In this document: one piece after another, positions 1,638 through 25,906 of the stretch
Layout of the letters: each line of letters starts with the position of its first letter
Position numbering within the stretch: position 1 is the stretch's first letter
IMG/VR virus record: IMGVR_UViG_3300032308_002516
Coordinates: 1-53,900 of that record
Length of the DNA stretch: 53,900 nt
From: a virus
Reading direction: 5' to 3' (one strand)
Position numbers and translations under genes: made by a program
Notes under the pieces: model-generated
What the model was told of the DNA's origin: nothing
Databases searched by the model: none
What the model saw: only the letters and a program-made list of their open reading frames with translations

Positions 1638-2557
1638 TTCACGGTTTTGAAAATGGAAAATTCTATATAGATTTTATTTCTTCTTCTAGACCCATAGGTA
1701 ATATGAGAGAGGAGGCTGACAGAAGGGCGTTAGAGATCGCCAAAGATAATCCAAAATGTATTTTGAGTTTCAGTGGGGGTATAGATAGCCAAAGTGTTCT
1801 GCATAGCTTTTACACACAAGGACTCCCATTAGAAACTGCATTTATGTTCTGTCCCGGATATAACGATAACGAGTACGAACAAGTTAAAATTCTAGACAAA
1901 AAATATAAAATTTCTACAGAAGTTATTACTATTGATCCCATGGCCTGCAGAGAAGAAATTGAATTTTTAAGTCTCGAATTAGATATACCGGGGAAAAATC
2001 ATTTACTACAAAGAAAATTTTTAAGTTATCTCCCACCCGATTATACTTTTATACAAATCGTACATGACCCTTTTGTCTATATCAATCCAGTTTCTAGAAA
2101 CAAATATTACTGTCAAGGTTATTATTGGCCGGAAATAGCTCGGCAAATAGCATTAGACTCACTAGGAAGGCCGGGAAGAAATATATTATACGGTGATACA
2201 TGGCAATTTTTAGCCAGCATTCTTAATGACGATATTTTTAAGTCGGCAATGATCTCCTCACAGTACTTTGATAACAACGGAGCTACTATTGCTGGAAAAG
2301 ATCTTCGTGGTGTGGATAGATGGGATTATTATATCAAACCCTTAATTTATGGAAAATATTGGAAAGACGAGTTGATCTATTTTACCAAGTATCGTGGGTT
2401 TGAATTAATACCATATCTTAATGATAAAACTCCTAAAATAAAGAAACACATGATAGCCTATCCCTATGAAGAAATTATTTCTTTTTTAACTTCTCAAAAA
2501 ACAGAAGTAAAAAGAGTTTACGAAAATGTAGATTATAATCTTTCGGAAATACTTTGA
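1634..2557 (+). CDS. PP-loop ATP-pyrophosphatase (asparagine synthetase-like)
   Basis: The 307-aa protein has the PP-loop signature SGGIDS at residues 47-52 after a beta strand (ILSF), as in asparagine synthetase C-domains, NAD synthetase, QueC and sugar amidotransferases. These enzymes adenylate a carbonyl and let an amine or thiol displace AMP. There is no N-terminal glutaminase domain, so the nitrogen donor would be ammonia or another protein. It is coupled at both ends: ATGA overlap with the Rieske gene and TGATG overlap with the next PP-loop gene. The substrate is unknown. It belongs to a different subgroup from the following gene. Confidence 0.75.
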   Translation: MIHGFENGKFYIDFISSSRPIGNMREEADRRALEIAKDNPKCILSFSGGIDSQSVLHSFYTQGLPLETAFMFCPGYNDNEYEQVKILDKKYKISTEVITIDPMACREEIEFLSLELDIPGKNHLLQRKFLSYLPPDYTFIQIVHDPFVYINPVSRNKYYCQGYYWPEIARQIALDSLGRPGRNILYGDTWQFLASILNDDIFKSAMISSQYFDNNGATIAGKDLRGVDRWDYYIKPLIYGKYWKDELIYFTKYRGFELIPYLNDKTPKIKKHMIAYPYEEIISFLTSQKTEVKRVYENVDYNLSEIL

Positions 2558-3789
2558 TGAAAAATAAAATTGGATTTTACTATAAAGTCAAAGACAAAAT
2601 ATTTTACAATAAAATAGATGCGATCATGCATGCTAGTAAAACTTTAGACGATGTCTCTTGGCACTTTCACCAAGATATATTTGAAAAAATAAATTGGACT
2701 ATAGAACCGGATGCAGACTTAGATGAATTCTATAAAAATCGAGCCCAACAAATACGAGAAGAATATGACTATGTCGTAATTTTATGTAGCGGCGGAGCGG
2801 ATAGTACCAATGTCGTAAAGAGTTTTTTAAACAACGACATTTTTCCTGACGAAATCATAGCGGCAGCACCTATGTCTGGGCTAAACAACTTTGATTTCAA
2901 TACCAAGGATACTAGCCACATAAACACAATGTCCGAAACAAAGTATGCTCAACTTCCGTTGATGGACGAAATATCATCTAAATTTCCCAACGTTAAAATC
3001 ACACTCCATGATTATTTTCATGACATGTTAGATTATAAGTCGGAAGAATGGCTATATCAATGTGAAGATTGGGTTCATCCGTCTAGCCGTGCTAGATATA
3101 GATATGAAAGAATTCCACACTTGAAAAAAATAGCAGAGGCCGGCAAACGCATGGCATTTGTATACGGTATTGATAAACCAACATTAGCTGTAGATGATCA
3201 TACTGGGGATATCTATACTGTATTTGCTGACCTTCCTGTTAACGTTCAGAGATTACCGTTCGATAGGGATTATTTAAATGTAGATAACGTTTTATTTTAC
3301 TGGAATGGTCAATTACCTTTAATGATGGTCAAACAGGCACATCAGTTATCCAGATGGATTTTTAAACCGGAAAATATCAGAGCATTAAAATATCTAAGAA
3401 TACAAAGCAGAGCGTTGAAAACTTCCTGGGCCGAAAACCGATTCCGACATAGCCGATATGAGAGAGCAATAGTTCCCTGCATTTATCCCTCTACGCATAG
3501 ATCGATTTTCCAAGCAGAAAAGCCGATAAGCATTTTTCTAGGAGAACACGACGGTTGGTTCTATCAACTACATAACAAAACTATGCTTAATCAGATGATG
3601 GTATCAGATACCATTAGTTTTTTTAAAAAAATAAATCCTAAATATATTAATCCAGGAAATAACGGATTTCAAACTTTTATTAATTCTTATAAAATTGGAA
3701 AAGTTTCAGACTTTACAGAAAATCAAGATACCTTTAAGAGCATGCTAGATCTACCAGAGGTATTAGTATCTCGTTATTTTGATAGATAA
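2557..3789 (+). CDS. PP-loop protein, long paralogue A
   Basis: This 410-aa protein has a PP-loop SGGADS at residues 78-83, preceded by a conserved REEYDYV stretch. It is clearly paralogous to the gene at 21251: both share a W-x-F-x(3)-IF…W start, the same P-loop block, a DYF-D-ML segment and a C-terminal FLG-HD-WFYQLH motif. The long C-terminal part (residues 200-410) is unlike known asparagine synthetases that I can recognise. I choose the ATG at 2557, which overlaps the previous stop as TGATG; a TTG one codon earlier is possible. The role is probably ATP-dependent amidation or ligation, substrate unknown. Its 3' end overlaps the convergent cupin gene by 16 nt. Confidence 0.75.
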   Translation: MKNKIGFYYKVKDKIFYNKIDAIMHASKTLDDVSWHFHQDIFEKINWTIEPDADLDEFYKNRAQQIREEYDYVVILCSGGADSTNVVKSFLNNDIFPDEIIAAAPMSGLNNFDFNTKDTSHINTMSETKYAQLPLMDEISSKFPNVKITLHDYFHDMLDYKSEEWLYQCEDWVHPSSRARYRYERIPHLKKIAEAGKRMAFVYGIDKPTLAVDDHTGDIYTVFADLPVNVQRLPFDRDYLNVDNVLFYWNGQLPLMMVKQAHQLSRWIFKPENIRALKYLRIQSRALKTSWAENRFRHSRYERAIVPCIYPSTHRSIFQAEKPISIFLGEHDGWFYQLHNKTMLNQMMVSDTISFFKKINPKYINPGNNGFQTFINSYKIGKVSDFTENQDTFKSMLDLPEVLVSRYFDR

Positions 3790-4397
3790 GTTCTGGTTAT
3801 CATCGGATTAGATTCATCTCTAGGGCCATCCTCGCTATCCGGATGGAATGCTACCAAGCTCATACTATGGTCCTGTGTTCTAAATCTATGTTTTGAAAAT
3901 CGATCTAATATAAAAATTGTTCCTGAAGATAATTCATAAATCTGATCATTAACATCTGCGAATCCCTGCCCAGATAGAACCATACCAATTCTCACGCTAG
4001 GATGAGTATGAAAAGTCTGATTTATTTCTGGAGGGAAAAAAAGATAATTAAGACAAGGATCCCCGTCTCTGGGAGCCGGTATCACACAAGAATTAGAACA
4101 TCCGTCTATGTAACTCAGGTTACCCGGAGATAAAGTATTTAAAAGTGTTAGAATTTCTTCATTCATATTGAATCCAAGTAATTCTATAATAACACCTTTC
4201 CCTTCTACTTCAAATCCTTGATTGAGAGAAGCAGATATTTTTCCTTTTCCGGAAATCGAATCTCCTCGTATTTCACCGTCACAGATTATCATTCGAGTTA
4301 TAGATTGATTTTTAAATGATCGAGTACCATTCAAAATTTTAATACTCAAGCGGTGTCGATCAAAAATGTCTGTATCTTGTGTGATAAATCTAATCAT
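3774..4397 (-). CDS. Cupin-domain protein
   Basis: The 207-aa protein ends in a cupin barrel: motif 1 as FHTHPSVRIGMVLSGQG (about residues 132-148) and motif 2 as G-T-x(5)-F-S-x-H (about 162-172). The two His of HTH and the later His are the likely metal ligands. The N-terminal 100 residues are beta-rich and may form a second, degenerate barrel. Cupins include dioxygenases, isomerases and sensors, so the reaction is not defined. It is an isolated reverse-strand gene between two forward genes, with a late-type box 4 nt upstream of its ATG. It overlaps the end of the PP-loop gene by 16 nt. Confidence 0.7.
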   Translation of the reverse strand: MIRFITQDTDIFDRHRLSIKILNGTRSFKNQSITRMIICDGEIRGDSISGKGKISASLNQGFEVEGKGVIIELLGFNMNEEILTLLNTLSPGNLSYIDGCSNSCVIPAPRDGDPCLNYLFFPPEINQTFHTHPSVRIGMVLSGQGFADVNDQIYELSSGTIFILDRFSKHRFRTQDHSMSLVAFHPDSEDGPRDESNPMITRTYLSK

Positions 4398-4401
4398 ACA
4401 T

Positions 4402-4409
4402 TATTTATC
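4402..4409 (-). promoter_or_regulatory. T4-type late promoter box (GATAAATA, minus strand)
   Basis: On the minus strand GATAAATA stands 4 nt before the ATG of the cupin gene, so a transcript from it would be leaderless. Confidence 0.5.
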
Positions 4410-4426
4410 AGTGGGTGTTTTTCCTC

Positions 4427-4434
4427 TATAAATA
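4427..4434 (+). promoter_or_regulatory. T4-type late promoter box (TATAAATA)
   Basis: This exact late consensus lies 20 nt upstream of the radical SAM ATG at 4455. It argues that this ATG, not the in-frame ATG at 4353, is the true start. Confidence 0.65.
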
Positions 4435-4454
4435 TCCGACAGAAATCAAATTAT

Positions 4455-5918
4455 ATGGATATAGTATTATTAACCGCGTGTGTCGGCAAAGAATTTAAAC
4501 TTTTCAGAACTCTAGGAACTTATCAAATCGCATGGTATCTTCGTAACTTTGATTATTCTGTGCAGGTGATAGATTTTATACATAAATTTTCTGAAGAGCA
4601 AATTTGGAAATTGATCGAAAAATATGTAAACGATAAAACAAAAATTGTCGGATACAGCCCAATGATAGATTTTCCGGAACACGGAGAATACAACAATAAG
4701 ATCGAAAGAATATTATTACGTATCAAAAAGAAATTTCCACAGATAAAAATCGTAGCAGGGGGTGCCTCAGCACAGGCGTTTGTTAAGAAATATAGAAATA
4801 AAAGTTTATTTGATGTTATTTTTATGGGACATGCCGAAGATACAATGTTGGCTTTCTGTAACCATATATTTAGAGGGGCCGCACCCCTGGCATATGAAAA
4901 AATCGAGGGAAATGTTGTAATTAGAGAAAATATTCCTCTTCCTCAGATATTTGAAAAATTTGATATTAAAAAATGTACACACACGTGGAGCCAAAATGAT
5001 TTTATACAACCGAGAGAGACTTTGCCGATAGAACTCGGAAGAGGGTGTGTATTTGCCTGTAAATTTTGTCAATATCCTTATATAGGAAAATCTAAAAACG
5101 ATTTTACTAGAGAAATGGAATTAATAAAAGAAGAAATACTTAGAAATTACCAGCAGTTCGGAACAACTCGTTATTACATGGTCGACGATACTTTTAATGC
5201 TGATAGAACACGATTAAAAGAATTTACAGAGATGGTAAAAACTTTACCTTTTGATCTTCAATACGCAGCATATCTAAGACTTGATTTAATTCATAAATGG
5301 TCGGAGCAGGAAGATCTCCTTCCAGAATCGGGATTAGTTAGTTGTTTTTTTGGAATAGAGAGCTTTAATCAAGAAGCAGCAGATTTAGTTGGAAAAGGGT
5401 GGCAAAACAAAAAAGTAAAAGATTATCTTCCTGATCTTTATCATAATAAATGGAAGAGAAAAATTTCTCCGAGACTTGGATTAATTTGCGGACTTCCGCC
5501 TGAAACATTTAATGAAATGTTTGATACCCATAATTGGTTAGTAGAAAATAAATTACCTAGCTGGTATTGGGCGCATCTCCAGATCAATCGTGATAAAATT
5601 AACTCATACACTTCGGAATTCGAAAGAAATGCAGAAAAATATGGTTTTTCTTTCGAAAGCGATAATGGTAGGGTTATCTGGAAACATAGCTTATACAACG
5701 AAAGACAGACCGAAGACATGGCAACCACTCTAAATAATTTGTCTAAGCCTTACACCACCCCTAGCTGGATGCCCCTTTTAGAATTAGGCAATTATACAGA
5801 CGATATAAATCTTTATAGAGTAACGGCCCATGATAGTATAGATTGGAATCCAATACGTCAAGGAAGGCTCAATTTCCTAAAAAATTACTATACCCAACTG
5901 TTAAATCAAAATATCTAA
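4455..5918 (+). CDS. Radical SAM enzyme with B12-binding-like N-terminus
   Basis: The 487-aa protein has the radical SAM [4Fe-4S] motif CxxxCxxC (C198, C202, C205 in ELGRGCVFACKFCQYP). A Rossmann-like N-terminal region of about 150 residues precedes it (IVGYSPMID, IVAGGASA) and resembles the B12-binding domain of class B methylase/cyclase radical SAM proteins, though the DxHxxG cobalamin motif is not obvious. Family knowledge: such enzymes cleave SAM to a 5'-deoxyadenosyl radical for methylation or rearrangement. The start at 4455 is preferred because a late promoter box sits at 4427-4434; an upstream in-frame ATG at 4353 would lie inside the divergent cupin gene. The 3' end overlaps the convergent DUF3050 gene by 4 nt. 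Confidence 0.85.
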   Translation: MDIVLLTACVGKEFKLFRTLGTYQIAWYLRNFDYSVQVIDFIHKFSEEQIWKLIEKYVNDKTKIVGYSPMIDFPEHGEYNNKIERILLRIKKKFPQIKIVAGGASAQAFVKKYRNKSLFDVIFMGHAEDTMLAFCNHIFRGAAPLAYEKIEGNVVIRENIPLPQIFEKFDIKKCTHTWSQNDFIQPRETLPIELGRGCVFACKFCQYPYIGKSKNDFTREMELIKEEILRNYQQFGTTRYYMVDDTFNADRTRLKEFTEMVKTLPFDLQYAAYLRLDLIHKWSEQEDLLPESGLVSCFFGIESFNQEAADLVGKGWQNKKVKDYLPDLYHNKWKRKISPRLGLICGLPPETFNEMFDTHNWLVENKLPSWYWAHLQINRDKINSYTSEFERNAEKYGFSFESDNGRVIWKHSLYNERQTEDMATTLNNLSKPYTTPSWMPLLELGNYTDDINLYRVTAHDSIDWNPIRQGRLNFLKNYYTQLLNQNI

Positions 5919-7943: not shown

Positions 7944-7971
7944 ATAGGGCTCCCAGGAGCCCTATTTTTTT
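7944..7971 (+). terminator. Rho-independent terminator
   Basis: An inverted repeat of nine to ten base pairs (ATAGGGCTCC / GGAGCCCTAT) is followed by a T run. It lies 18 nt after the phosphoesterase stop codon. Confidence 0.9.
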
Positions 7972-7977
7972 GGCTGG

Positions 7978-7985
7978 CATAAATA
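7978..7985 (+). promoter_or_regulatory. T4-type late promoter box (CATAAATA)
   Basis: CATAAATA directly follows the terminator and precedes the tail-fibre ATG at 8018 by 32 nt. The leader carries a CAGGAG Shine-Dalgarno. Confidence 0.65.
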
Positions 7986-8017
7986 TAATGAATAGGATAT
8001 TTCCAGGAGTTATTACT

Positions 8018-9376
8018 ATGCCCTTACAGATTCGCAGAGGCACCAGTGCTGAAGTTAATAGTATCACACCGTTGATCGGTGAGATTGTATACGATTCAAC
8101 ATTAAAAAGAATAGTTGTAGGTGATGGCACTACACAAGGAGGAATATCTGTAGCTGGTATTAATCTTAACGAAGCAAAAGATTCTGTTTCTGAGGTGTTT
8201 TTAGGGGGCAACCATAAAAATATCTCCTTTAGCTATAACAGTGCATCGAAGGTTATTTCAGCCACTGTAACTCTTGATCAATTTGAACTAGGAACAATTA
8301 ATGCCTCTATTATTGATAACAGCTCAACTACACTTGTAGATTCCGAAACCGGAGTAATTAGATGCAGTGATTTCTTTATTAACGAAGTGAATATCACTTC
8401 CGACGGAACAAATATAAATTTACCAGCAGGCACTACTATTGATGGTAATGAGATAGAATTTTACATCGGCACAGATGATTCTACAACTACAACAGTATCC
8501 AATGCTGACACCATAAACATTTTAGGTGACAACGTAAATATCTTTACTGCGGTAAATGAGGAAGGATATATTTTTGTATATTCTGATATAAGACAAATAA
8601 CTCCTCAACCGGACGCCAATGAAACTACAGCACATTTTATTCCGTTTTTAAGTAGTTTTAACAGTGCCTCTACAATAAAATGTGATGGAACTTTGAATTA
8701 TATTCCCGATACTGGTACATTAGCAGTAGATAAAATTTTTGCTGATACTTCGATTGGATCCCCTGCTTTGAATACAACTGTATTAACTACTGGTACTATC
8801 TATGCTAATAATGTACTAGAAATTACAGCTGCTCTTAATACTGGCACGACTCAACATCTAGTACAAGTTGGCAGTAATTCGATAGATGGAAGATTTAGAG
8901 TATTTCAAAATTCATATAAGAGTCTGTCAATGGTTGTGTTTGATCAATACCATTCAACTCCTGATGTTGACGATTTAAGATTTAACAGAGGTAGAGGAAC
9001 ATCAACAGCAACTACAGCAGTACAAACTGGTGATGACATCGCAGATATTTCATTTGCGGGACACGACGGAACTGCCATGCGTCTTTCTTCGGGAATAAGT
9101 GCTAGAGTAATGGGAACAGTTTCAAGTGGTGTGGTTCCCGGAGAATTGTTGTTTAATACAACTAACAGCACAGGAACATATCTTAATGCTGTAGAAATTA
9201 ATTCTAGCCAACAAACTACTTTCAAAGGTGCTATAACATTAGCTACATATGCGGATGCTGCGGCGAGAAACACTGCGATCCCAACTCCAACCGCAGGAAT
9301 GATGGTTTATATCACTGGCACAGGAAAATTCCAAGGATATAACGGCTCGACAACCACCTGGGATGATTTGAACTAA
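8018..9376 (+). CDS. Tail-fibre / virion structural protein
   Basis: The 452-aa protein begins with a small beta-rich domain (PLQIRRGTSAE…GEIVYDSTLKRIVVGDGTT) common at the N-termini of fibre proteins in marine T4-like phages and similar to the Mtd-type fibre head. The middle is a repetitive Ser/Thr/Asn-rich beta region. The C-terminus (YADAAARNTAIPTPTAGMM…YNGSTTTWDDLN) is a cap seen on many phage fibres. I prefer the ATG at 8018, after CAGGAG, over in-frame upstream starts that overlap the late promoter box. No reverse transcriptase or template repeat is nearby, so a diversity-generating retroelement is not supported. It overlaps the convergent QueC-like gene by 4 nt. Confidence 0.8.
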   Translation: MPLQIRRGTSAEVNSITPLIGEIVYDSTLKRIVVGDGTTQGGISVAGINLNEAKDSVSEVFLGGNHKNISFSYNSASKVISATVTLDQFELGTINASIIDNSSTTLVDSETGVIRCSDFFINEVNITSDGTNINLPAGTTIDGNEIEFYIGTDDSTTTTVSNADTINILGDNVNIFTAVNEEGYIFVYSDIRQITPQPDANETTAHFIPFLSSFNSASTIKCDGTLNYIPDTGTLAVDKIFADTSIGSPALNTTVLTTGTIYANNVLEITAALNTGTTQHLVQVGSNSIDGRFRVFQNSYKSLSMVVFDQYHSTPDVDDLRFNRGRGTSTATTAVQTGDDIADISFAGHDGTAMRLSSGISARVMGTVSSGVVPGELLFNTTNSTGTYLNAVEINSSQQTTFKGAITLATYADAAARNTAIPTPTAGMMVYITGTGKFQGYNGSTTTWDDLN

Positions 9377-14635: not shown

Positions 14636-15379
14636 ATGAAAAATAAAATTATTGTTATTACAGGGGGAAATGGAGCTGTGGCTAAAGAAGCTGCTAAAAG
14701 ATTCTCCGAAATCGGTTCTACAATTTATATCATAGTAAGAAACAATATCGACGAGGCTAGTGAATTTATTAAGAGCTTGCCCAATCAAGAGTTAAATCAC
14801 AGAGCATTTTTGTCATCCATTACAGATACCAATGCTCTTAGATCGGTAGTACAAGAAATAAAAAACATTTCCGGACGATGTGACCTCCTCATAAATTCAG
14901 CAGGAATTACTAAAAGCCTGGATAATGAAGATTTAAATTCCTATACCGATGAAATCATTGATGAAATTTTAATTAATAATGTCAGAGGAACCTTTTCAGT
15001 GATACGGGAATTTACACCATTATTACTAAACGGCGAGGAAAGTTTGATTATTAATATTACTTCAGCATCAAATAGAAGAGCTAGTCAATCGAATATTATC
15101 TACGGTGCTTCAAAGTCTGCTTTAGAATTAATTACAAGATCTTTAAGTAGAACTCTAGCACCAAAAATCAGAGTGGTATCTGTATGTCCCGGAATGTTAG
15201 AAACACCAACATCAGGGGGATATAAACCCGAAGGGACTAACGAAAGAATTGCGAAACAAATACCCCTGGGTAGAGTAGGTAAAGCTTCTGATGTTGTAGC
15301 AACTATAGAAGCATTGGCTACTTCTTTAAAATATGTAAACGGAAGTTCTATACTGTTAGATGGGGGTCGATTGGCTTGA
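14636..15379 (+). CDS. Short-chain dehydrogenase/reductase (SDR)
   Basis: The 247-aa classical SDR has a TGGNGAV cofactor loop (variant of TGxxxGxG) near residue 8, an N-S-A-G motif, a catalytic Ser in NITSAS, YGASK (Y-x3-K) and PGMLETP. Family role: NAD(P)-dependent oxidation of a hydroxyl or reduction of a ketone, as in FabG or hydroxyacid dehydrogenases. It overlaps the BKACE start (TTGA at 15376-15379), so it may supply a beta-keto acid to that enzyme; this is an inference from the gene order. Confidence 0.9.
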   Translation: MKNKIIVITGGNGAVAKEAAKRFSEIGSTIYIIVRNNIDEASEFIKSLPNQELNHRAFLSSITDTNALRSVVQEIKNISGRCDLLINSAGITKSLDNEDLNSYTDEIIDEILINNVRGTFSVIREFTPLLLNGEESLIINITSASNRRASQSNIIYGASKSALELITRSLSRTLAPKIRVVSVCPGMLETPTSGGYKPEGTNERIAKQIPLGRVGKASDVVATIEALATSLKYVNGSSILLDGGRLA

Positions 15380-16254
15380 AAACTGTAATAACCGCAGCTA
15401 TCACCGGAGCGGGGACCAAACCCGAGGATACTCCTTATCTTCCTATTACACCGGAACAGATCGCCACATCGTCACTAGAATGCGCCGAAGCAGGCGCCGC
15501 TGTGGTACATATACACGTTCGTGATCCAGAAACAGGCCGCCCGGCCATCGCTTTAGATCTATATCAGGATACTGTTGATAGAATTAAAAAACACAACAAG
15601 GATCTAATCATTAATTTAACCACGGGTCCGGGAGCAACATTTGTTCCAAGCGATGAAAAATTGTCTGTCGGGGGAGACGGCACTTATCTTTTTGATGCAG
15701 CTCTAAGAGTTCGTCACATTGAAAAAATTAAACCAGATATATGTAGTATCGACTTTAACACTATGCATCATGCTGGAAATTCAGTGCGTATTAACTACAA
15801 ACCAATTGTTAAAGAAATGATAAAAATGGTTCAAGCAGTTCGATGTAAACCTGAATTAGAAATTTTTGATAGCGGAGATTTTCGAATCGCTCAAGAATTC
15901 ATTTCTGAAGGTGTGATCGACAGTCCTCCACTATGGCAATTTGCCATGGGCATTAAATACGGTTGGTCGGCTTCTCCCGAAACATTAGACTACGCTCGCA
16001 GGCAACTTCCTAATGGTTCTGTCTGGTCGGCGTTTGGTATTAGTAAAATGCAGATGCCTATTGTAGCACAATCATGGTTATATGGCGGACATGTTCGCGT
16101 TGGCATGGAAGATAATATTTTTATCGAAAAAGGCGTTTTAGCGAAAAGCAACTCGGGGTTGGTAATAAAAGCCGCAAGAATAATTAAAGATTTAGGTGGA
16201 AAGGTAGCTAACTACACAGAAGCAAGAGAAATTTTTAATTTATATCAGAGATAA
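15376..16254 (+). CDS. Beta-keto acid cleavage enzyme (BKACE/DUF849)
   Basis: The 292-aa protein matches BKACE (3-keto-5-aminohexanoate cleavage enzyme) from the first residues: K-x-VITAAITGA, the zinc motif HIHVRDPETGRP and the NLTTGPGA substrate loop. These Zn enzymes join a beta-keto acid with acetyl-CoA to give acetoacetate and a new acyl-CoA; family members act on lysine-fermentation intermediates or dehydrocarnitine. The start codon is TTG at 15376, overlapping the SDR stop; no closer ATG fits the conserved N-terminus. Codons are somewhat less AGA-biased than in the neighbours. A hairpin terminator follows. Confidence 0.9.
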   Translation: MKTVITAAITGAGTKPEDTPYLPITPEQIATSSLECAEAGAAVVHIHVRDPETGRPAIALDLYQDTVDRIKKHNKDLIINLTTGPGATFVPSDEKLSVGGDGTYLFDAALRVRHIEKIKPDICSIDFNTMHHAGNSVRINYKPIVKEMIKMVQAVRCKPELEIFDSGDFRIAQEFISEGVIDSPPLWQFAMGIKYGWSASPETLDYARRQLPNGSVWSAFGISKMQMPIVAQSWLYGGHVRVGMEDNIFIEKGVLAKSNSGLVIKAARIIKDLGGKVANYTEAREIFNLYQR

Positions 16255-16280
16255 AAAAAGGACTCCGAAGAGTCCTTTTT
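16255..16280. terminator. Bidirectional rho-independent terminator
   Basis: AAAAAGGACTC and GAGTCCTTTTT flank a CGAA loop. The A-tract on one side and T-tract on the other suit termination in both directions between the convergent BKACE and DctP-like genes. Confidence 0.85.
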
Positions 16281-16294
16281 ACTTTAAGATTAAA

Positions 16295-17242
16295 TTATTT
16301 TGCTTTCTTAATCTTATCAACTAAACCAGCTGTGAAATAGTCTTGGAACTTATCATAGACTACTTTGGTTTCATCAGCAAATCTAGCCTTCTCTTCTTTG
16401 CTCATCTTTAGAACTTGAATACCATCTTGTTCAGCACGAGCTTGTGTAGCTAGTACATCGTCAATACTGATAGAACGTTCGTAACGAGCAGCAACTTGAG
16501 CAGCTTCAGATACTACAGTTTGTAGTTCTTCAGATAGACCGTTCCAGAAGTCTGTACCGATTAGGATCGATGTTAAGAACAAACTGTGTTCTGTGTGGTT
16601 GATAACCTTAGAAACTTTATCATGACCTAGAGCATACACACGTGGATATGTGCTTTCGCCGATATCTACATTGGCATTTCCTAGATTCTCTGATAATTCT
16701 TCTAGTTCCATTGGAACAACATCAGCACCTAGTGTCTTGAATGTTTCAATCGCCACCGGACTGTGGCTAGTGCGAACTTTAACATCACGTAGATCTTCAA
16801 TACGTGCTACAGGTTCATTTCCAGGAATAATACGGAAACCGCCCGAGTATGTGAAAGCCAAGCCTTTTACTTTCTTGCTTTCTTGTAAGCTGTCTAGCAA
16901 CTGCTTACCAACTTCTCCTTCAAATACACGACTTGCGTGATCGTGTGATTCGAACAAGAATGGCAAATCTAGTGCGAAGAAGTCCTTGTTTACTTTACCT
17001 AATGTGATTGTATAGGTTTGGCTCATTTCGATCTTGCCCTGATCTAATAGATCAACAAGCTCATGCTTGGTGACTACTACACCGTTGTTATATTTTTGAG
17101 TGTATTCACTCATAGTCATAACTTCGATTTCTAGTTGATCAGGAGCTTTTTTGTTTACTTCTTCTGCAAAAACTTTGGCAGCGCGAATAAACAATTCGAT
17201 CGGCTCGTGTGCTAGAACCCATTTAATATGCTTTTTGTTCAT
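16295..17242 (-). CDS. DctP-like TRAP solute-binding protein without signal peptide
   Basis: The 315-aa protein follows the DctP/TRAP periplasmic binding fold: FALDLPFLFES, a GFRIIPGNEPV segment, the conserved LRDVKVRTS strand, LGADVVPMELEEL and a helical C-terminus. These proteins capture organic acids for TRAP transporters. Unusually, it starts MNKKHIKWVLAHEP directly in the mature domain with no signal sequence, so it should stay in the cytoplasm or be packaged. No TRAP membrane subunits are nearby. It has a good Shine-Dalgarno (GGAATGGAG), a late promoter at 17302-17309 and about ten of eleven Arg codons as CGN, unlike its AGA-rich neighbours. This suggests high expression or a separate origin. 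Confidence 0.85.
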   Translation of the reverse strand: MNKKHIKWVLAHEPIELFIRAAKVFAEEVNKKAPDQLEIEVMTMSEYTQKYNNGVVVTKHELVDLLDQGKIEMSQTYTITLGKVNKDFFALDLPFLFESHDHASRVFEGEVGKQLLDSLQESKKVKGLAFTYSGGFRIIPGNEPVARIEDLRDVKVRTSHSPVAIETFKTLGADVVPMELEELSENLGNANVDIGESTYPRVYALGHDKVSKVINHTEHSLFLTSILIGTDFWNGLSEELQTVVSEAAQVAARYERSISIDDVLATQARAEQDGIQVLKMSKEEKARFADETKVVYDKFQDYFTAGLVDKIKKAK

Positions 17243-17301
17243 TTTGAGTACTCCATTCCTTTAAACGTTAAGGTTGAGTAGGGTCATGACTCCCTACTCT
17301 T

Positions 17302-17315: not shown

Positions 17316-18209
17316 TTATCTTTTGGATTGCTCGATCTGTGTTTTATACTTGATTTGTAGATTTCTTACCATAGAAATGGATTTTTCATAAAACTGATCT
17401 GCAGGAATGTTATCAAACTGCGGAGGTCTAACGGCACTCAGTTTAAACACTTCAGTTTCACCGATTTTAGCAGTGGCTTGTTCTAGTATTTTTCCGATTA
17501 CCGCACGTCTTGCTGCTGGCATGTCTTTATGCGATACTAGGATGTTAAAAATATAGGGTGAATTTATACCCATTTCCTTTAATGTTGGAATCTTAGGTTC
17601 CTGCGGGAGTCTAGTAGGACAGCTGGCCGCTATCATCGTCATTTTTGGATTTTTAGTTTTTAACGATTGATATGCTTCATATCTGTCTATAACGAATTCA
17701 ACTCCGTTTTCTCCGGTCATGTTTACCAAGGCATCGTTGTTAGATTTGAAAACAATATATCTAACTGAAAACTTATATTTTTCTCCTAGAGCTAAGGCTG
17801 TTAGATGAGCAGCATTTCCATAACCTACTCCGCCAACTACAAATTCTTGTTGTCCTTTAAGTGGTTTATTGGTAATCACGGCCCAGCAGGCATCCCCCAA
17901 CGCATACACAGGAACATAATCCTGTTCATTTATTTGACCAGAAGCTACGTTTTCTACAAAAGCCGGAGCGATAATAGCTAAAGAGTTTAAGGCATCCAAC
18001 GATTTCACTGCTATAATTTGATTGCCACCAGGTTTGAACTCCAGCGAAAACTTATAGATATTTTGGCTGGTATTAGCTTCGTCTATGATTTTTAACATAG
18101 CAGATGTAGCACTATGTCCTGGACTATAGGGAGAAATTATTTTTATAGATTCAGTCGCATAACTAGTAGATGAAATAGCTAATAACAGTAAAAAAATTAT
18201 CTTTTTCAT
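17316..18209 (-). CDS. TctC/Bug-family periplasmic solute-binding protein
   Basis: The 297-aa protein has a clear signal peptide (MKKIIFLLLLAISSTSYA, cleavage after residue 18). A tripartite-tricarboxylate-type receptor fold follows: the mature start IKIISPYSPG, then FKPGGNQ, GGVGYGNAAH and IPTLKEMG. Bug proteins bind carboxylates, amino acids or similar ligands for TctAB transporters and are especially numerous in Burkholderiales, which may hint at the host. No TctAB genes are present. Exported to the periplasm it could feed a host transporter. It uses AGA-type Arg codons, unlike the DctP-like gene downstream. Confidence 0.85.
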   Translation of the reverse strand: MKKIIFLLLLAISSTSYATESIKIISPYSPGHSATSAMLKIIDEANTSQNIYKFSLEFKPGGNQIIAVKSLDALNSLAIIAPAFVENVASGQINEQDYVPVYALGDACWAVITNKPLKGQQEFVVGGVGYGNAAHLTALALGEKYKFSVRYIVFKSNNDALVNMTGENGVEFVIDRYEAYQSLKTKNPKMTMIAASCPTRLPQEPKIPTLKEMGINSPYIFNILVSHKDMPAARRAVIGKILEQATAKIGETEVFKLSAVRPPQFDNIPADQFYEKSISMVRNLQIKYKTQIEQSKR

Positions 18210-18302: not shown

Positions 18303-19178
18303 ATGATCTTCCCAAAAAACGATTACATTAGGACTTTTGGTTCGGGCAAAAACTTTCGAGCCGAAATCGATCCACCGTCAAATAAACACAGCGACTTCCA
18401 TAAGATTTCTCTAGAAGTAGCCGAGGAAATATACGATCTTCGGCAAGGAAAATTATATCTTATGTATAGCGGCGGAGTAGATAGTGAATATATACTAAAT
18501 CTTTTTTTATCCTTAAAAATAGATATCACACCGGTAATTATAAAATTAAATCCAAACTATAACGAACACGATGTCAAATATGCCTTCGAATTCTGCGAAT
18601 CTAAAAAATTGAAGCCTATTATAATAGATTTTGATTTTGATGAATTTGTAGAATCGGGGAGAATAGTCGACATTGCCGCCGAATACTGTATCGGTGCATA
18701 TCAATTACCCGGAACATTCTCCTGTGTCGATCAATTAGGAGGCACAGTTGTAATGGGCAGTCACGGCCCGCCACACATGACTTTAGACAAAAAAAACAAT
18801 ATCTGGATGGTCGATGAAATAGAACCGCTCCACACTGTTTTAAAATATTTCAAAAAAAATAAAATATTCGGATGTCCTTATTTTCTAGTTCACAGACCCG
18901 AACAATATCTTTCTTTCCTGCAGCATCCTATTATGAAAAATCTTGCTAATCATCAATTTCCAGGTAAGTTAGGTAACAACTCAATCAAAGGTTTAGTATT
19001 CAACGACTTTAGTGGCTTTAACTCGATTAGGAGACAAAAGTATACCGGATATGAAAATATCGAAAGCAGTGAAATATTCGATCATCCCAATCTAAAAATA
19101 TTTGGAAAATTTAAAGAAAGGTGGTGGGGAACACACTCCGAACCATATTTTGATTTCATTTCCAGGATGGAAAAATAG
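18303..19178 (+). CDS. PP-loop ATP-pyrophosphatase
   Basis: The 291-aa protein has a PP-loop SGGVDS at 56-61 after the strand LYLMY. A conserved region follows with YCIGAYQLPGTFSC and an MGSHGPPHM loop near residues 155-163. It lacks a glutaminase domain and the Cys cluster of QueC. It resembles the gene at 1634 in overall size and style. Role inferred from the family: adenylation of a carboxyl or carbonyl, then attack by an amine. It is the first gene of a coupled operon with an ATP-grasp ligase, a 2OG oxygenase, a second PP-loop protein and a GNAT. Confidence 0.75.
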   Translation: MIFPKNDYIRTFGSGKNFRAEIDPPSNKHSDFHKISLEVAEEIYDLRQGKLYLMYSGGVDSEYILNLFLSLKIDITPVIIKLNPNYNEHDVKYAFEFCESKKLKPIIIDFDFDEFVESGRIVDIAAEYCIGAYQLPGTFSCVDQLGGTVVMGSHGPPHMTLDKKNNIWMVDEIEPLHTVLKYFKKNKIFGCPYFLVHRPEQYLSFLQHPIMKNLANHQFPGKLGNNSIKGLVFNDFSGFNSIRRQKYTGYENIESSEIFDHPNLKIFGKFKERWWGTHSEPYFDFISRMEK

Positions 19179-19194
19179 AATAAGTAAGATACCT

Positions 19195-20469
19195 ATGAAT
19201 ATCGCAATTATTTCTTCGTCCTCTAGTTATCACCAGGTGGCACAAATGTTTACTAAAGAATCAAATGTAAACAAAGTCTATCATTACGGTGCCCATCCTT
19301 CTCTGATCGAAAACGAAAAGTATTTTCCTATACCGATTTATATCCCAGTTATTCCAAAAAATAATTCTATCGACGAAGAAGTCAAGTTAATACTAGAAGA
19401 TATTCAAAGAAGAAATATAGATTTTGTGCTGACTTCATCTGTACAAGTTCCTAGTAGTTTATTAATTCACGAAGGCCTTAAAAAACTTAATATCCCATAT
19501 TTTTTTGTGAGTCCTGAAATGACCGGTTTAGAAAAAAATAAAACTTTAAGTAAAAAAATGTTTAATAGTTTACAAATACCAACTGGAATTGGGGAAACAG
19601 TAAATGGAAAATATCTGTTTGACAATTTTAGGACCATTCCTAGGCCTTTTGTTATAAAGTTAAATTTCGTTTATCAATACGGAAAACAAACTATTATAGT
19701 AACCGATGATAATTTTGAAGAGGTTTATCTTGACTTGTTTAGTGTAAGATTAGACAACAATGCTAGAATTACCAATATCGGATTTGATGTCAGTTTAATC
19801 ATAGAAAAATTTATCAACATTAAAAAAGAATATTCTTATCATGCGTTGTTTAATTCCTCTGGATGGAAATATCTAGGATCAGCTAGAGATTATAAAAAAA
19901 TCCACGATGGTGATCAGGGATTTAATTCCGTGAGTATGGGATCATATAACATGAATAATGTCGATTTTGTGGTTCATGAATACGCTGATAAAATTTTTAA
20001 TTTTTTAAAGAGTAAAAACTATATCTACAAAGGTTTTATATTTTTAGGAATAGCCGTAGATGAAAACGATGTTCCTATGATTTTAGAAATTAATACCCGA
20101 AGCGGAGATCCGGAACTACAGGCAATACTAGGTTCTGTTAATAACAATTTGAGTGAATTATTTTTAACTGCTAGTCGAGATGATCCTATTCCTGATATAA
20201 CGCACAATGAAAATAAAACTGTAACTATTAGATTAATGAATTCAGTTTACGACTGGACTAAACCTGCTTCATTTCTTCCTAAACTAAATCCCTGTCCTGA
20301 AAATATACTGCACGGATTAGAGGGAACTGATCCTTTCTATATCAAACACTCTGTTTTTACAGCATCCGATAGAACTCATCGTGCCGCTGCTGAAAAAATT
20401 TATTCATACCTAGATAGTCAATTTGTAGGACAATTTAGATATCGAAGAGACATTGGAATACTAGAATGA
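19195..20469 (+). CDS. PurD-like ATP-grasp ligase
   Basis: The 424-aa protein has the domain order of phosphoribosylamine-glycine ligase: an N-terminal Rossmann-like domain (MNIAIISSSSSYHQVA), an ATP-grasp core with a DGDQGFNSVSMGSY loop (PurD has a DGDKGPNTGGMG-type loop) and a metal-binding FLGIAVDENDVP…EINTRSGDPELQ stretch. The glycine-rich part of the PurD loop is altered, and no other purine genes are present, so the substrate may be different. ATP-grasp enzymes form amide bonds through acyl phosphates. I use the ATG at 19195; a longer frame overlaps the preceding gene. It is joined by ATGA to the next oxygenase. Confidence 0.85.
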   Translation: MNIAIISSSSSYHQVAQMFTKESNVNKVYHYGAHPSLIENEKYFPIPIYIPVIPKNNSIDEEVKLILEDIQRRNIDFVLTSSVQVPSSLLIHEGLKKLNIPYFFVSPEMTGLEKNKTLSKKMFNSLQIPTGIGETVNGKYLFDNFRTIPRPFVIKLNFVYQYGKQTIIVTDDNFEEVYLDLFSVRLDNNARITNIGFDVSLIIEKFINIKKEYSYHALFNSSGWKYLGSARDYKKIHDGDQGFNSVSMGSYNMNNVDFVVHEYADKIFNFLKSKNYIYKGFIFLGIAVDENDVPMILEINTRSGDPELQAILGSVNNNLSELFLTASRDDPIPDITHNENKTVTIRLMNSVYDWTKPASFLPKLNPCPENILHGLEGTDPFYIKHSVFTASDRTHRAAAEKIYSYLDSQFVGQFRYRRDIGILE

Positions 20470-21251
20470 AAAACAAATTATATTCTATTGATGTTTTTGA
20501 CGATATCGTTTCCAAAGAAACACAACTTAAAGTCGAAAAATATTTAGAAGATCAAACTTGGCACATCCAATGGATGCCCTTGCCCGCACTTCCGAAAAAA
20601 TTAAATAGATTTAAACCGAAGGATGGGTTATCCGGTCCGCTATCATCTTGGCCTATTGTGCAGTCTACTACTTTCGCAAGATGCTGTTTAGCTAGAGACG
20701 AGGATCATTTAAAGAATAAACATTATCTGATATGGAAGCTCTGGCAAGAAATAAATGCTGGCCTTAACAACGAATACGAAATCACAGGATACCCAGAAGA
20801 TATGTTCGATGAAGAATATTCCAAAGAACACGGAATAGACGGTTGGGGTTGGAGAGTTTATGTCAACGGATTATATGGCAGAATAACCACTGGCACTTGG
20901 GGAGCGCACAGAGATACTCCCGACCTAACTGATGAATCCAGCGTTACAATTTTATACTTCGTTAATCCAGAGTGGTATCCTAGGTGGAGTGGCGAAATTG
21001 TTTTTTACCCTGACGATTTAGAAGGATCTTCGGGAGATCATCAACAATTTAATGTTGGAGATCATCAACAGCAAAGAAATTACAATGTAGGCTGGGCTGA
21101 TCAAGGAAAGCTGGTCAGTCCGGTTCCTAATAGAGTAGTAGTATTCGACGGTAGATGCTTACATAATTGTCAGCCGCCGTCGACACCAGAAGGCGCTAGA
21201 TCAAAGCCGTTGTGGCGTGTGGTTTTTAGAGCTAGAAAAAAGGTAAAATAA
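20466..21251 (+). CDS. Prolyl-4-hydroxylase-like 2OG-Fe(II) oxygenase
   Basis: The 261-aa protein has GAHRDTPD (H148, D150), a TILYFVNPEW strand, W-S-G-E-I-V-F-Y, PNRVVVFDGRCLHNCQP (H233) and R245 or R251. This is the best-preserved 2OG oxygenase in the window and looks like the P4H catalytic family. An insertion at about residues 190-209 contains two GDHQQ copies. It is coupled to the ATP-grasp gene before it and the PP-loop gene after it (TAATG at 21249-21253). It probably hydroxylates the product or carrier made by these ligases, which is inference. Confidence 0.85.
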   Translation: MKNKLYSIDVFDDIVSKETQLKVEKYLEDQTWHIQWMPLPALPKKLNRFKPKDGLSGPLSSWPIVQSTTFARCCLARDEDHLKNKHYLIWKLWQEINAGLNNEYEITGYPEDMFDEEYSKEHGIDGWGWRVYVNGLYGRITTGTWGAHRDTPDLTDESSVTILYFVNPEWYPRWSGEIVFYPDDLEGSSGDHQQFNVGDHQQQRNYNVGWADQGKLVSPVPNRVVVFDGRCLHNCQPPSTPEGARSKPLWRVVFRARKKVK

Positions 21252-22498
21252 TGTTAGACGATTTAGGATTTTATACTGTAGGCACTGAAAAATTTTACGA
21301 AAAAATTCCTGCGATGTTCAGAGCGCAGCAATTAAAAACAGAAATGTCTTGGAATTTTAATGACGAAATTTTTTCTAAAGTAGATTGGACAAAGGAACCT
21401 TCCGAGTCTTTAGATGAGCTGTATGCTAAAAGAGCAAAACAGATAAGAGAAGAATACGATTATGTTCTTCTTTTCTGTAGTGGTGGCGCCGATAGTACAA
21501 ATATGTTTTATGCCTTTGTCAACAATGGTTTACATGTCGATGAAGTAGTAGGAAGCGCACCTATATCTGGATTAAGAGATTGGAAAAGTAATCCAACCGA
21601 TCAACGAGTAGAAAACACTATAGATGAAACTTTTCACACACAAATACCTTGGTTGAAAAAAATTGAAACTCAATTCCCTAAAACAAAAGTAACTCTTCAT
21701 GATTATTTTGATGATATGCTGGAATATAAAGCCGACGATTGGCTTTTAAAAGGAAACGATTGGATGCATCCAACTATGGCCGGTCGGTATAATCTAGATC
21801 GTTATATTCATCTGAAACGCATAGCAGAATCAGGTAAAAAAATTGCCGTGGTTCAAGGCATAGACAAACCAAAAATTTACAGGCACAAAGATAATTTTTA
21901 TCTTGTTTTTGTAGACAACGTATATAACAACAAGTACGATTCTGTAAATCACCCTAATACCAATCCGGTGTTCTTTTATCATTCGCCGCAGCTACCGCAG
22001 TTGATAATAAAACAGGCACACGTTACAGCTAGTTTTCTCATGAAACCAGAAAATAAAAGCATATATGATGTTATGCCGGGAAACGACGAACGTGCTCTTG
22101 GAAAAGATTTAAAGATATCAGCTCTAATGAATCCACCAAATCCTGGAATTTACGAAAGAGGAATAGTTCCGGCAATATATCCGGCAATTAAAAAAATATC
22201 ATTCCAAGCAGGAAAACCAGATCGAATGTTCTTAGGTAAACACGACGATTGGTTTTATCAACTTCACAAAGATATTAGAATATGGGATATGATGCAGTCA
22301 GACTTGGCTAATCTAATCAGATCATTAGATCCCAAATTTTTACTTAATGATCAATATCGTGGATTATTAGGATTTAGATACTGGAGAAAATATTATAAGA
22401 TTGGACCAGTGTCGAATTTTTTATCAAATCCGTTGAATATCCTATTAGATAGCAACAAAAATAAATCTCCGATAGAAAATATTGACGATGTGAAATGA
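21251..22498 (+). CDS. PP-loop protein, long paralogue B
   Basis: The 415-aa protein has a PP-loop SGGADS at 77-82 in the same REEYDYV context as the gene at 2557. The two align along their whole length, including the W-x-F-x(3)-IF N-terminal block, LHDYFDDML, GIDKP, a GIVPAIYPAI/AIVPCIYPST segment and FLG-HD-WFYQLH. This indicates a duplication within the same genome about 18.7 kb apart, with divergence. The conserved C-terminal blocks are not part of known asparagine synthetase families that I recognise. It is fourth in a fully coupled five-gene operon. Function unknown; amide-forming or AMP-transferring chemistry is likely. Confidence 0.75.
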   Translation: MLDDLGFYTVGTEKFYEKIPAMFRAQQLKTEMSWNFNDEIFSKVDWTKEPSESLDELYAKRAKQIREEYDYVLLFCSGGADSTNMFYAFVNNGLHVDEVVGSAPISGLRDWKSNPTDQRVENTIDETFHTQIPWLKKIETQFPKTKVTLHDYFDDMLEYKADDWLLKGNDWMHPTMAGRYNLDRYIHLKRIAESGKKIAVVQGIDKPKIYRHKDNFYLVFVDNVYNNKYDSVNHPNTNPVFFYHSPQLPQLIIKQAHVTASFLMKPENKSIYDVMPGNDERALGKDLKISALMNPPNPGIYERGIVPAIYPAIKKISFQAGKPDRMFLGKHDDWFYQLHKDIRIWDMMQSDLANLIRSLDPKFLLNDQYRGLLGFRYWRKYYKIGPVSNFLSNPLNILLDSNKNKSPIENIDDVK

Positions 22499-23047: not shown

Positions 23048-23866
23048 ATGTTAAAAAAAATATCCAAAGCATTTTATTTTATCTTCATTCCTAAAATATC
23101 TCTAGCTATAATCACGGTAATTTTATTGGCTGTCGGAATAATTCCTCTATATTATCTGTGGTTCACGCTATTCATGTGGATTATGGTTTGCGGACTTGGC
23201 ATAGCTTGCGGATATCACAGAATTTTCAGTCATAAAACTCACGACATTCCCAGATGGAAAGAGAATATCATTTTGTTTTTTGCTGTGTTTGCTGGGCAGG
23301 GACCAAGTATTTTTTGGGTCGCCGCCCATAGAGGATATCATCATCCGCATGCCGACAAGGACAAAGATCTACACAGTCCAGTAGTTAAAGGTTATTGGCA
23401 TGCCTTTTACGGGTGGATTAAACAAATAACAGAATCTAACGTGGTAGTTAATATAAAATATTCCTCAGACCTAATGCGTAAATCTAATCATGTTTGGTTT
23501 TTTAATAACTACATGAAAATTTTATGGGGCGTTCCTTTATTGTTATGTTTGATAGATTGGAAACTAGCTTTTACTGGATTTTTTCTTGTTACGGGATTTT
23601 TCGGTGTGATACAAGACAACTTGATAAACGTGTTCGGTCACCAAAAAATGTTAGTAGGATATAGGAATTTTAAGACAGACGATAATTCACATAATAATCC
23701 CATCATGGGGTTGATAACTTGGGGACAGGGTTGGCATAATAATCACCACCATGCTCCCGGAAATTATGACTTCGGAAAAGGAACATCGGGAAAATGGTGG
23801 GAGTTTGATCCCTGCATATTATTTCTACCCTTTGTAGGAAAAGGAAAAAATTACCAATCTCGTTGA
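23048..23866 (+). CDS. Acyl-CoA/acyl-lipid fatty-acid desaturase (delta-9 type)
   Basis: The 272-aa integral membrane protein has the three His boxes of DesC/stearoyl-CoA desaturases: HRIFSH (57-62), HRGYHH (94-99) and GWHNNHH (H230, H233, H234). Hydrophobic helices lie at about 15-55, 72-92 and 155-190. The family inserts a cis double bond into saturated acyl chains in the cytoplasmic membrane using O2 and an electron donor. In a phage it could tune host membrane fluidity or build an acyl group for the AMP-ligase encoded at 25955. Its last 16 nt overlap the convergent PP-loop gene. Confidence 0.92.
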   Translation: MLKKISKAFYFIFIPKISLAIITVILLAVGIIPLYYLWFTLFMWIMVCGLGIACGYHRIFSHKTHDIPRWKENIILFFAVFAGQGPSIFWVAAHRGYHHPHADKDKDLHSPVVKGYWHAFYGWIKQITESNVVVNIKYSSDLMRKSNHVWFFNNYMKILWGVPLLLCLIDWKLAFTGFFLVTGFFGVIQDNLINVFGHQKMLVGYRNFKTDDNSHNNPIMGLITWGQGWHNNHHHAPGNYDFGKGTSGKWWEFDPCILFLPFVGKGKNYQSR

Positions 23867-25104
23867 AATCGAGATATATGATACCTTATGTATTCTTGTA
23901 CATCCAAGTCGTCTATACTTAATAAGTTATAGTCGCTATCTAAGCCAAATCTAGCATTAGGCTTAAGCCTATCCGGAAGATCACTAACATCCTGATGATA
24001 CATAACATTTGGACCTAAGCTTCCGAGTTTAAGTTTAAAAAAATAATACCAATCGTTTTTGTCTAAGTCGTGTATGTATTTTCTAGCAGCCATTTTATAA
24101 GTAGTAGGTCCGTATAGGATTTTTTCCCCGTTATTATTATTGACCATCGACCATTTTTGATATTCCACGCTTGCGAACCAGTTAATGGCCCAATCATTAA
24201 TCACTGTGCCGTAGTCTAGTTTATCATTTAAAAAAACAGAAATCCTAACAGCACAACTTACCCATTTAATATTAAACAAGACCCACCAATAGTAATCGTG
24301 TAGGCTTTGAATAGGAACTGTAGAAGTTTTGATATTCTTTTCAAATTTATCATACCACGATTCCCCCAAATAAGGACACTGTGGAGTAGACCAATGTTTT
24401 ATGATCAAATCCTTATATTCTGAATAATGAACATCAGGTGAGGCCATTTTACTTTGTATATTAAGTAAATGATTTCTAGAGTTAGGCGATACTTTATCTA
24501 GATAAAATTCATAATTTTGCTGTAATTCTAAGAAGCTCATAGTTCCGAATATACAATCGCCTTCATCAGCAGTGATGGGTCTTAATCCTAGATTTATAAG
24601 GGAATCATATTTGTACTGTGCTGAATCATATATTTGAAACTTGTTCCAAATAAACTTCTTCCAAAATATAGGATTTTCTATCATAGAGTGTCCATTGGCA
24701 CATACACTGACATTTTTGATCTCTTCTTGAGTTAGATTCTTAATCAATGCTGCCATTATCACAGTACTATCAAATCCTCCTGAATACATGACTACAAATT
24801 TTTGATTTTTATTTTTAATTAGGTCAGCAATTTCTCTAGCACGTAAATCTGAAACTTCGTCGAATGATTTATTAAAAACAGGATCATACTCTGGCATTTC
24901 AAAACCAGGTGGAATTTCCTGTGGCCATGCCATAGACCATTCTCCATTCCTACTAACGAATCTCTGTGGTTTATATAGGGTGCTGAGATCTAATATAAAC
25001 TTTCCACCCGATCCCGCATCCTCACGAAGACTATCCCAAAAATCTTGCTGATAATAATTGTAGGTTATACCGCTTAGATATAAAACTGAATTTTTTGATA
25101 ACAT
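23851..25104 (-). CDS. Asparagine synthetase-like PP-loop protein
   Basis: The 417-aa protein has a PP-loop SGGFDS at 108-113 (FVVMYSGGFDSTVIM) followed by a helical synthetase-type domain of about 300 residues. It contains a YLGESWYDKFEK segment and a C-terminal LPDRLKPNARFG. Its first 100 residues are short and not a class II glutaminase, since the Cys nucleophile is missing. It is the most asparagine-synthetase-like of the six PP-loop proteins. It lies one base downstream of an unknown 266-aa gene on the same strand and is probably coupled to it, so that protein may be its partner. Confidence 0.75.
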   Translation of the reverse strand: MLSKNSVLYLSGITYNYYQQDFWDSLREDAGSGGKFILDLSTLYKPQRFVSRNGEWSMAWPQEIPPGFEMPEYDPVFNKSFDEVSDLRAREIADLIKNKNQKFVVMYSGGFDSTVIMAALIKNLTQEEIKNVSVCANGHSMIENPIFWKKFIWNKFQIYDSAQYKYDSLINLGLRPITADEGDCIFGTMSFLELQQNYEFYLDKVSPNSRNHLLNIQSKMASPDVHYSEYKDLIIKHWSTPQCPYLGESWYDKFEKNIKTSTVPIQSLHDYYWWVLFNIKWVSCAVRISVFLNDKLDYGTVINDWAINWFASVEYQKWSMVNNNNGEKILYGPTTYKMAARKYIHDLDKNDWYYFFKLKLGSLGPNVMYHQDVSDLPDRLKPNARFGLDSDYNLLSIDDLDVQEYIRYHISRFQRDW

Positions 25105-25105
25105 G

Positions 25106-25906
25106 TCAGACTACCCATGTTGTTTGATTATTTCGATGTTTTACAAATCCTGCCGGGCCTAGTTTTTTTAGTTCGCTAGGTTCTTCGATTCCCATGATAA
25201 GGTAAAACAGTTGCCTTGTATCTGACGGGTCGTTTTTAGAATGTTCTAACCAAGCATTATTAATCGATACCATGGCGGAATCGATAGAATCAGATTCATA
25301 TAAAATTGTTTTGATTAAATTAATAATTCCTTGCTCTGCAGAAGTATTATCATGATAAATTTTAAAATCTTTAGGAAATTGATCATGGAAAAAAACATCT
25401 AGGTATTCTTTTTCTGGAAAAAAGTTTTTGAAATTTACAGATAAAGTTATTGCGTATAAGGTTCTCAAAGAAAATAAGGCATATTCTTGTAATCTAAGAA
25501 GTATATCTTTTCTAGGTTCCTCAACAAAATCTACAGGCCAGCCTTTTTCTATAATGATATTCTTTGGTATTTTTGATAGAGATGCTGACTGCCTGTGTGC
25601 CATGACTATAGGACTACCGTATCCCTTTTCATCTTTTTTATGTCTGGTGGAAAAATTTAAACAATTTTCATTATTCATGTCCGGTGTAACTTGATCTAGC
25701 ACATAAACTATGTTCGAAACTTTAGAAGATAAAACTTTACCTGTTTCATAAATCATCCAGGGATCGTAATTGTCAATAATAAGAAACCGGTCTACCCCTG
25801 GGGAAAAAATTGCGTAACTATTTTTTTTATTCCAACTTAACGGATAAAAGGTTTTATGAAACCCATCTACGGCATCTAACCATGGTTTTTTAGTGTATCT
25901 ATTCAT
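25106..25906 (-). CDS. Unknown protein coupled to the asparagine synthetase-like gene
   Basis: I do not recognise this 266-aa protein. It has no signal peptide or membrane helix. It shows alternating beta strands early (YAIFSPGVDRFLIID, about residues 31-45, and SNIVYVLDQ) and a helical C-terminal half. A GWPVDFVEEPRKDILLRL segment near residue 123 may be a conserved core. Its stop is one base before the ATG of the PP-loop gene, so the two are almost certainly co-translated. It could be an amine-supplying or substrate-binding subunit, but that is a guess. A late box lies 7 nt upstream of its start. Confidence 0.7.
   Translation of the reverse strand: MNRYTKKPWLDAVDGFHKTFYPLSWNKKNSYAIFSPGVDRFLIIDNYDPWMIYETGKVLSSKVSNIVYVLDQVTPDMNNENCLNFSTRHKKDEKGYGSPIVMAHRQSASLSKIPKNIIIEKGWPVDFVEEPRKDILLRLQEYALFSLRTLYAITLSVNFKNFFPEKEYLDVFFHDQFPKDFKIYHDNTSAEQGIINLIKTILYESDSIDSAMVSINNAWLEHSKNDPSDTRQLFYLIMGIEEPSELKKLGPAGFVKHRNNQTTWVV

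Follow-up and report, generated by a model that had tools for sequence, protein, structure and literature searches.

T4-like phages encode DctP-family solute-binding proteins that begin without an export signal and may bind carboxylates inside the infected cell

The window, as we call the whole stretch of 53,900 nucleotides analysed here (IMG/VR virus record IMGVR_UViG_3300032308_002516), encodes what is, judged by sequence and predicted structure, a complete DctP-family protein that starts where the mature fold has its first strand. Solute-binding proteins (SBPs) by definition work outside the cytoplasm, and bacteria normally export them past the inner membrane. The phage protein has the DctP fold but is predicted to fail export, one of the features that define TRAP binding proteins; it should be classified within the DctP family as a phage branch lacking the signal, not as a transporter component. 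We tentatively favor the reading that it is an abundant cytoplasmic binder of carboxylates, a sink or a carrier, tied to PP-loop chemistry. Within one phage lineage, hundreds of these SBP relatives have been kept without an export signal, under strong purifying selection and with capsid-tuned codons; either binding in bulk lets the phage control a host metabolite, or the SBP fold has taken on new work, structural or catalytic.

The observations in the sequence are the missing signal peptide, the fold, the codons, the promoter enrichment, the purifying selection, the pocket residues and the gene linkage. The gene and its signals are:

16295..17242, (-) strand: signal-less DctP-family (TRAP, SBP family 7) solute-binding protein (PF03480), 315 aa, ATG start
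17309-17302, (-) strand: TATAAATA, a T4-type late promoter-like element ~60 nt 5' of the DctP ATG
17250..17253, (-) strand: GGAG, a Shine-Dalgarno-like site 8-9 nt 5' of the DctP ATG
16255..16280 (approximate), (-) strand, usable on both strands: rho-independent-type terminator hairpin separating DctP from the convergent BKACE gene

In a Pfam profile search, the protein matched PF03480 with E=1.5e-51 (175.9 bits against a cut-off of 23.4). It scored 139 against the NCBIfam profile NF037995 (TRAP_S1; cut-off of 50) and 143 against TIGR00787, which is under that profile's cut-off of 175. The AlphaFold (AF2) model had a pLDDT of 95.4 and a first strand that spans residues 4-10, and Foldseek matched it to the TRAP binding proteins 4p47 and 8t9t in the PDB with a TM of 0.88. 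Both the profile and the fold are thus those of DctP/SBP family 7. Furthermore, the late promoter, Shine-Dalgarno site and terminator that an earlier note on this DNA had assigned to the gene were all located, as TATAAATA, GGAG and a hairpin with a U-run. The hairpin has an 11-bp stem (-14.4 kcal/mol and z -4.4 by RNA folding), and 0 of 200 shuffles were equally good.

Could the start have been mis-called, so that a signal peptide lies further upstream? The in-frame sequence between the upstream stop and the ATG consists only of RNGVLK, and a longer start is absent. An IMG/VR search with the single protein gave 58 loci, and a search with an alignment gave 367 viral relatives; starts were surveyed in all loci retrieved and by a scan for the WV-AHEP pattern, covering at least 148 distinct genes. 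Among the matches listed, the nearest ATG lay 3-8 codons 5' of the invariant tryptophan of this pattern in 148 of 148 distinct viral genes, none of which had an upstream hydrophobic start segment or signal peptide, and a Shine-Dalgarno-like site was present at 136 of 147 homologues. In seven further matches to the pattern this ATG was missing; most resembled chance matches, the exceptions being L188 and L252. These results rule out a mis-called start. They also bear out the claim of the earlier note that the protein lacks a signal peptide, including the two checks proposed there: no longer in-frame start exists in the window, and the sister-phage copies are all without a signal peptide.

The nearest signal-bearing bacterial relatives are Bacteriovoracaceae proteins with the AHEP motif (L267-L269, L273, L274), which are 41-47% identical and have the same pocket residues. 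Unlike the phage proteins, they carry a signal peptide directly 5' of the shared motif, ending where the phage proteins start, as in MKNFIYLALSCFVISSSFAAAPKKPYE-IRWVLAHEP. No TRAP membrane genes were recognised in the inspected flanks of these genes, and the WV-AHEP signature was missing from the betaproteobacterial DctP proteins checked. Four bacterial copies (L261, L265, L266, L278) are signal-less. In a tree of 79 proteins, the signal-less bacterial copies nest among the viral ones (support for L265/L266 with the viral clade, 100/100), and transfer from phage to bacterium is therefore likely. One simple loss of the signal peptide was also considered and set aside, as the tree leaves the direction unsettled and the signal-bearing clade does not fall cleanly outside. 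An accidental loss seems unlikely from these sequences, because the phages that lack the signal peptide on DctP have retained it on neighbouring binding proteins. Two other Bacteriovoracaceae loci (L259:7213-8160 and L260:6699-7646) hold signal-less DctP proteins, 50-51% identical, beside flagellin genes, and in both the gene adjoins a homologue (29-30%) of the window ORF at 50-700.

The earlier note had also pointed to unlike codons in two adjacent genes, and the counts agree. The arginine codons of DctP are CGT 8, CGC 2 and AGA 1 (10 of 11 CGN), against AGA 7 and CGT 1 (one CGN of eight) in the TctC-like neighbour; moreover, DctP uses ATA for 0 of 18 isoleucines and CTA for 15 of 28 leucines. 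We ranked genes by codon similarity to the phage's own major capsid gene, using the capsid codons of sister record G001 for the window ORFs. DctP ranked first of 53 ORFs in the window (z = +4.5) and the TctC-like gene 36th. In sister phages, DctP ranked 2 of 134 in the retrieved portion of G001, 2 of 237 in G005, 4 of 63 in G014, and 1 and 3 of 143 in G004, where the third is a 45%-identical paralogue. These ranks are level with those of scaffold, sheath and capsid genes, the scaffold-region, tail-sheath and capsid-adjacent genes being named from their position and from how the sequence looks, and not in every case by a family search. The odd codons are thus, as far as codon usage tells, the phage's own apparent high-expression set. 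Foreign codons from a recent transfer were rejected, as capsid and scaffold genes of sister phages share the CGT/CTA/no-ATA pattern. Phage tRNAs were not supported as the source of the pattern; no tRNA-Leu(UAG) was found, and the window is without any tRNA.

Across the family, 44 of the 134 distinct regions upstream of DctP (33%) contained TATAAATA, compared with 33 of 1049 other genes at the same loci (3%). Together with the capsid-like codons, this enrichment upholds, as a prediction, the suggestion that the protein is made in quantity, and the codons point to a high protein level.

The TRAP selectivity arginine, Arg-147 in SiaP, is present in 96.8% of DctP proteins (PMC4646407). Its equivalent in the window protein, R157, aligns with the KIR arginine of PDB relatives, so that the phage branch has the carboxylate-coordinating residue; it is conserved in 115 of 122 viral proteins, and R137 in 108 of 122. 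Residues W8, H12, E13, P14, R201 and R256 are invariant in the 122, and H219 is found in 121. The carboxylate-binding cleft thus appears to be retained, which suggests the class of ligand. The window gene and its L004 homologue differ by a pN of 0.126 and a pS of 0.674; over eight pairs, pN was 0.017-0.133 and far under pS in each, as expected from a protein that is, by this comparison, under strong purifying selection. Some phages hold two or three diverged signal-less paralogues, as expected for binders of different ligands. Tandem diverged copies lie in single phages at L115:5953-9982, L048:5002-6948 and L025:5989-7908.

The genes around DctP encode mainly enzymes:

14636..15379, (+) strand: FabG-like SDR reductase (PF13561 5e-39), 5' of BKACE
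15376..16254, (+) strand: BKACE beta-keto-acid cleavage enzyme (PF05853 1e-89)
17316..18209, (-) strand: TctC/Bug-type solute-binding protein with signal peptide MKKIIFLLLLAISSTSYA (PF03401 E=4e-5, under the curated cut-off)
18303..19178, (+) strand: PP-loop ATP-pyrophosphatase-like protein (SGGVDS motif; weak argG/TilS matches)
19174..20469, (+) strand: ATP-grasp (GARS-A-like) enzyme (PF01071 7e-17)
21251..22498, (+) strand: PP-loop-motif protein (SGGADS) of a family that adjoins DctP in many phages
23851..25104, (-) strand: PP-loop enzyme, asparagine/beta-lactam-synthetase-like, without a glutaminase domain; the commonest DctP co-traveller
25106..25906, (-) strand: uncharacterised protein; in L003, L014, L261 and L262 it is the partner of the PP-loop gene next to DctP

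The adjacent TctC-like gene does have the normal signal peptide that the earlier note described, and TctC-type proteins with signal peptides occur at 14 of 66 distinct DctP loci. A PP-loop-motif gene lies within two genes of DctP at 38 of these 66 loci (58%), against a background of 9.3% of ORFs in the retrieved sister-phage pieces and the window; as the loci are partly related and not independent, this is a strong association to which no formal P value is attached. The earlier note had made no mention of this link. About 42% of the loci have no PP-loop gene within two genes, and the window DctP is transcribed alone, outside any operon with the PP-loop genes. Four PP-loop-motif genes (2554-3789, 18303-19178, 21251-22498 and 23851-25104) are found in the window.

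Searching the PDB with the PP-loop sequences gave weak or no matches, and the 21251-22498 family had neither a PDB match nor a clear Pfam family. The model of the 23851-25104 protein (pLDDT 91.5) gave its best PDB matches, themselves weak (Foldseek E of 1.4e-3 at best, TM ~0.3), to asparagine, beta-lactam and carbapenam synthetases. These look-alikes activate carboxylates, and the resemblance would fit a carboxylate ligand. In bacteria too, the 23851-25104 family adjoins signal-less DctP: once in a MAG of the Xanthobacteraceae (L262) and once on a ClpX/ClpP-bearing contig (L261). On the latter, a chromosomal island (L261:1083-12578) mirrors the window, with BKACE (69% identical to window 15376-16254), a PP-loop gene, a 25106-like gene, signal-less DctP, a GNAT and two desaturases. 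The SDR reductase and BKACE pair (window 14636-16254) recurs near DctP in L013, L014 and L129. Signal-less DctP, TctC and PP-loop enzymes thus flag an unstudied phage metabolic module that is shared with bacterial islands.

The lack of a signal peptide and the predicted abundance support the part of the earlier reading that proposed a non-periplasmic use of the DctP family. Expression tuned to capsid strength and a dropped export signal suggest that the protein probably works in bulk within infected cells, and the kept cleft suggests that it is most likely soluble and binds a small carboxylate with high capacity. We infer the following scheme. The phage-specific branch, beginning at the mature fold, would remain in the host cytoplasm during infection, where it would be made late and in very large amounts and would bind the carboxylate through the retained cleft. 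As a sink, it would keep the carboxylate from host reactions; as a carrier, it would hold the carboxylate and deliver it to the neighbouring PP-loop, asparagine-synthetase-like carboxylate-activating enzymes. On the other hand, a pure carrier or pathway partner has no obvious need of capsid-level expression.

Late, capsid-level expression would also be explained if the SBP fold were built into the particle, as a decoration or a packaged protein. The T4-type late promoter, the codon use that ranks with capsid, scaffold and sheath, and about ten contigs that place DctP between tail-tube/head-closure and other structural-region genes are consistent with a virion component. The gene, however, shows no stable place in a structural cluster: it lies elsewhere beside the UvsX/DnaB replication genes or in metabolic islands, and on bacterial chromosomes beside flagellin or PP-loop genes. 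Moreover, only 2-7 residues precede the first strand, too short for a T4-type cleaved capsid-targeting sequence, and no fusion of DctP to a virion domain was seen. With the ligand-pocket residues conserved and the paralogues diversified, we consider a virion role unlikely, and this part of the earlier reading is weaker than the non-periplasmic part.

It is also conceivable, but quite unlikely, that the cytoplasmic protein has turned catalytic, in a pathway with the PP-loop, BKACE, SDR and 2OG-oxygenase enzymes. MqnA and MqnD are SBP-fold enzymes. Evolution from SBP to enzyme is established, for example, for cyclohexadienyl dehydratase (PMC7683729), which resembles the phage protein in using the SBP fold for another task, catalysis being the feature of the dehydratase. 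The near-invariant polar residues H12, E13, R201, H219 and R256 and the linked enzyme genes, shared with the bacterial island in L261, would suit a catalyst. The same residues, however, occur in the signal-bearing bacterial relatives, which are expected to be periplasmic binders, and enzymes seldom require capsid-level expression.

A metabolite sponge is possible, as the earlier note suggested; a very unlikely form of it is an anti-defence protein that sequesters a host immune or other small signal, in the manner of Tad1, Tad2 and Acb2. The folds of these proteins are not known to be related to that of DctP, and the possible common mode is bulk sequestration of a small molecule. Sponges are common in phages (PMC12043709) and need abundance, and the DctP paralogues diverge. 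However, a late promoter would be unusual timing for an anti-defence protein, the known signals are nucleotides, as are the ligands of Tad1, Tad2 and Acb2, whereas the DctP pocket type prefers carboxylates, and no defence genes were recognised nearby in searches that left out the defence library.

That this is an ordinary TRAP binding protein of the periplasm, exported by an unrecognised route or with its start mis-called, would be allowed by the family membership, the fold and the few transporter-bearing phages, but is extremely improbable given that none of the 148 viral genes listed has a longer, signal-giving start, that these phages keep the signal peptides of TctC and DctP paralogues linked to the gene, and that DctM is missing from the window and from 11 of the 13 sister records searched. 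The other two records (G005, G010) have DctM and also keep a signal-bearing DctP; at the corresponding locus L034, DctQ, DctM and a signal-bearing DctP lie directly 5' of the signal-less gene. The TRAP transporter genes in T4-like phage contigs are at L034:2808-6939, L032:2805-6933, G005:C1:110833-112077 and G010:C1:32593-33837.

The phage protein shares the full fold and the carboxylate arginine with DctP-type TRAP SBPs (PF03480; SiaP, IseP 8t9t, 4p47) but differs from them in lacking a signal peptide and mostly DctQ/DctM, in its capsid-like codons and in being phage-encoded. Two uncultured Caudovirales entries named 'TRAP transporter solute receptor DctP/TeaA' (A0A6J7WI33, A0A6J7WKL0) are 41-56% identical over the aligned part and have ~160 residues, compared with 315 in the window protein; no study of their missing signal or expression was found. 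The open-access literature searched held no description of the signal-less phage family, nor a prior one of an intracellular SBP coupled to phage PP-loop enzymes. Among cultured-phage records there was no close DctP homologue (15 matches, all <60% identity, best 29.7%, several in bacterial-looking records) and no match for the window PP-loop or TctC genes. The carriers are large, uncultured T4-like phages with Gp23 capsids; two of these capsids share 64-70% identity with their counterparts in cultured jumbo phages, PA5oct and Phosso among them. Elsewhere in the window, the phage island encodes a radical SAM protein that weakly matches a B12-binding domain (4353-5918), and 7970-9376 encodes a protein with a major-tropism-determinant N-terminal domain (Mtd_N).
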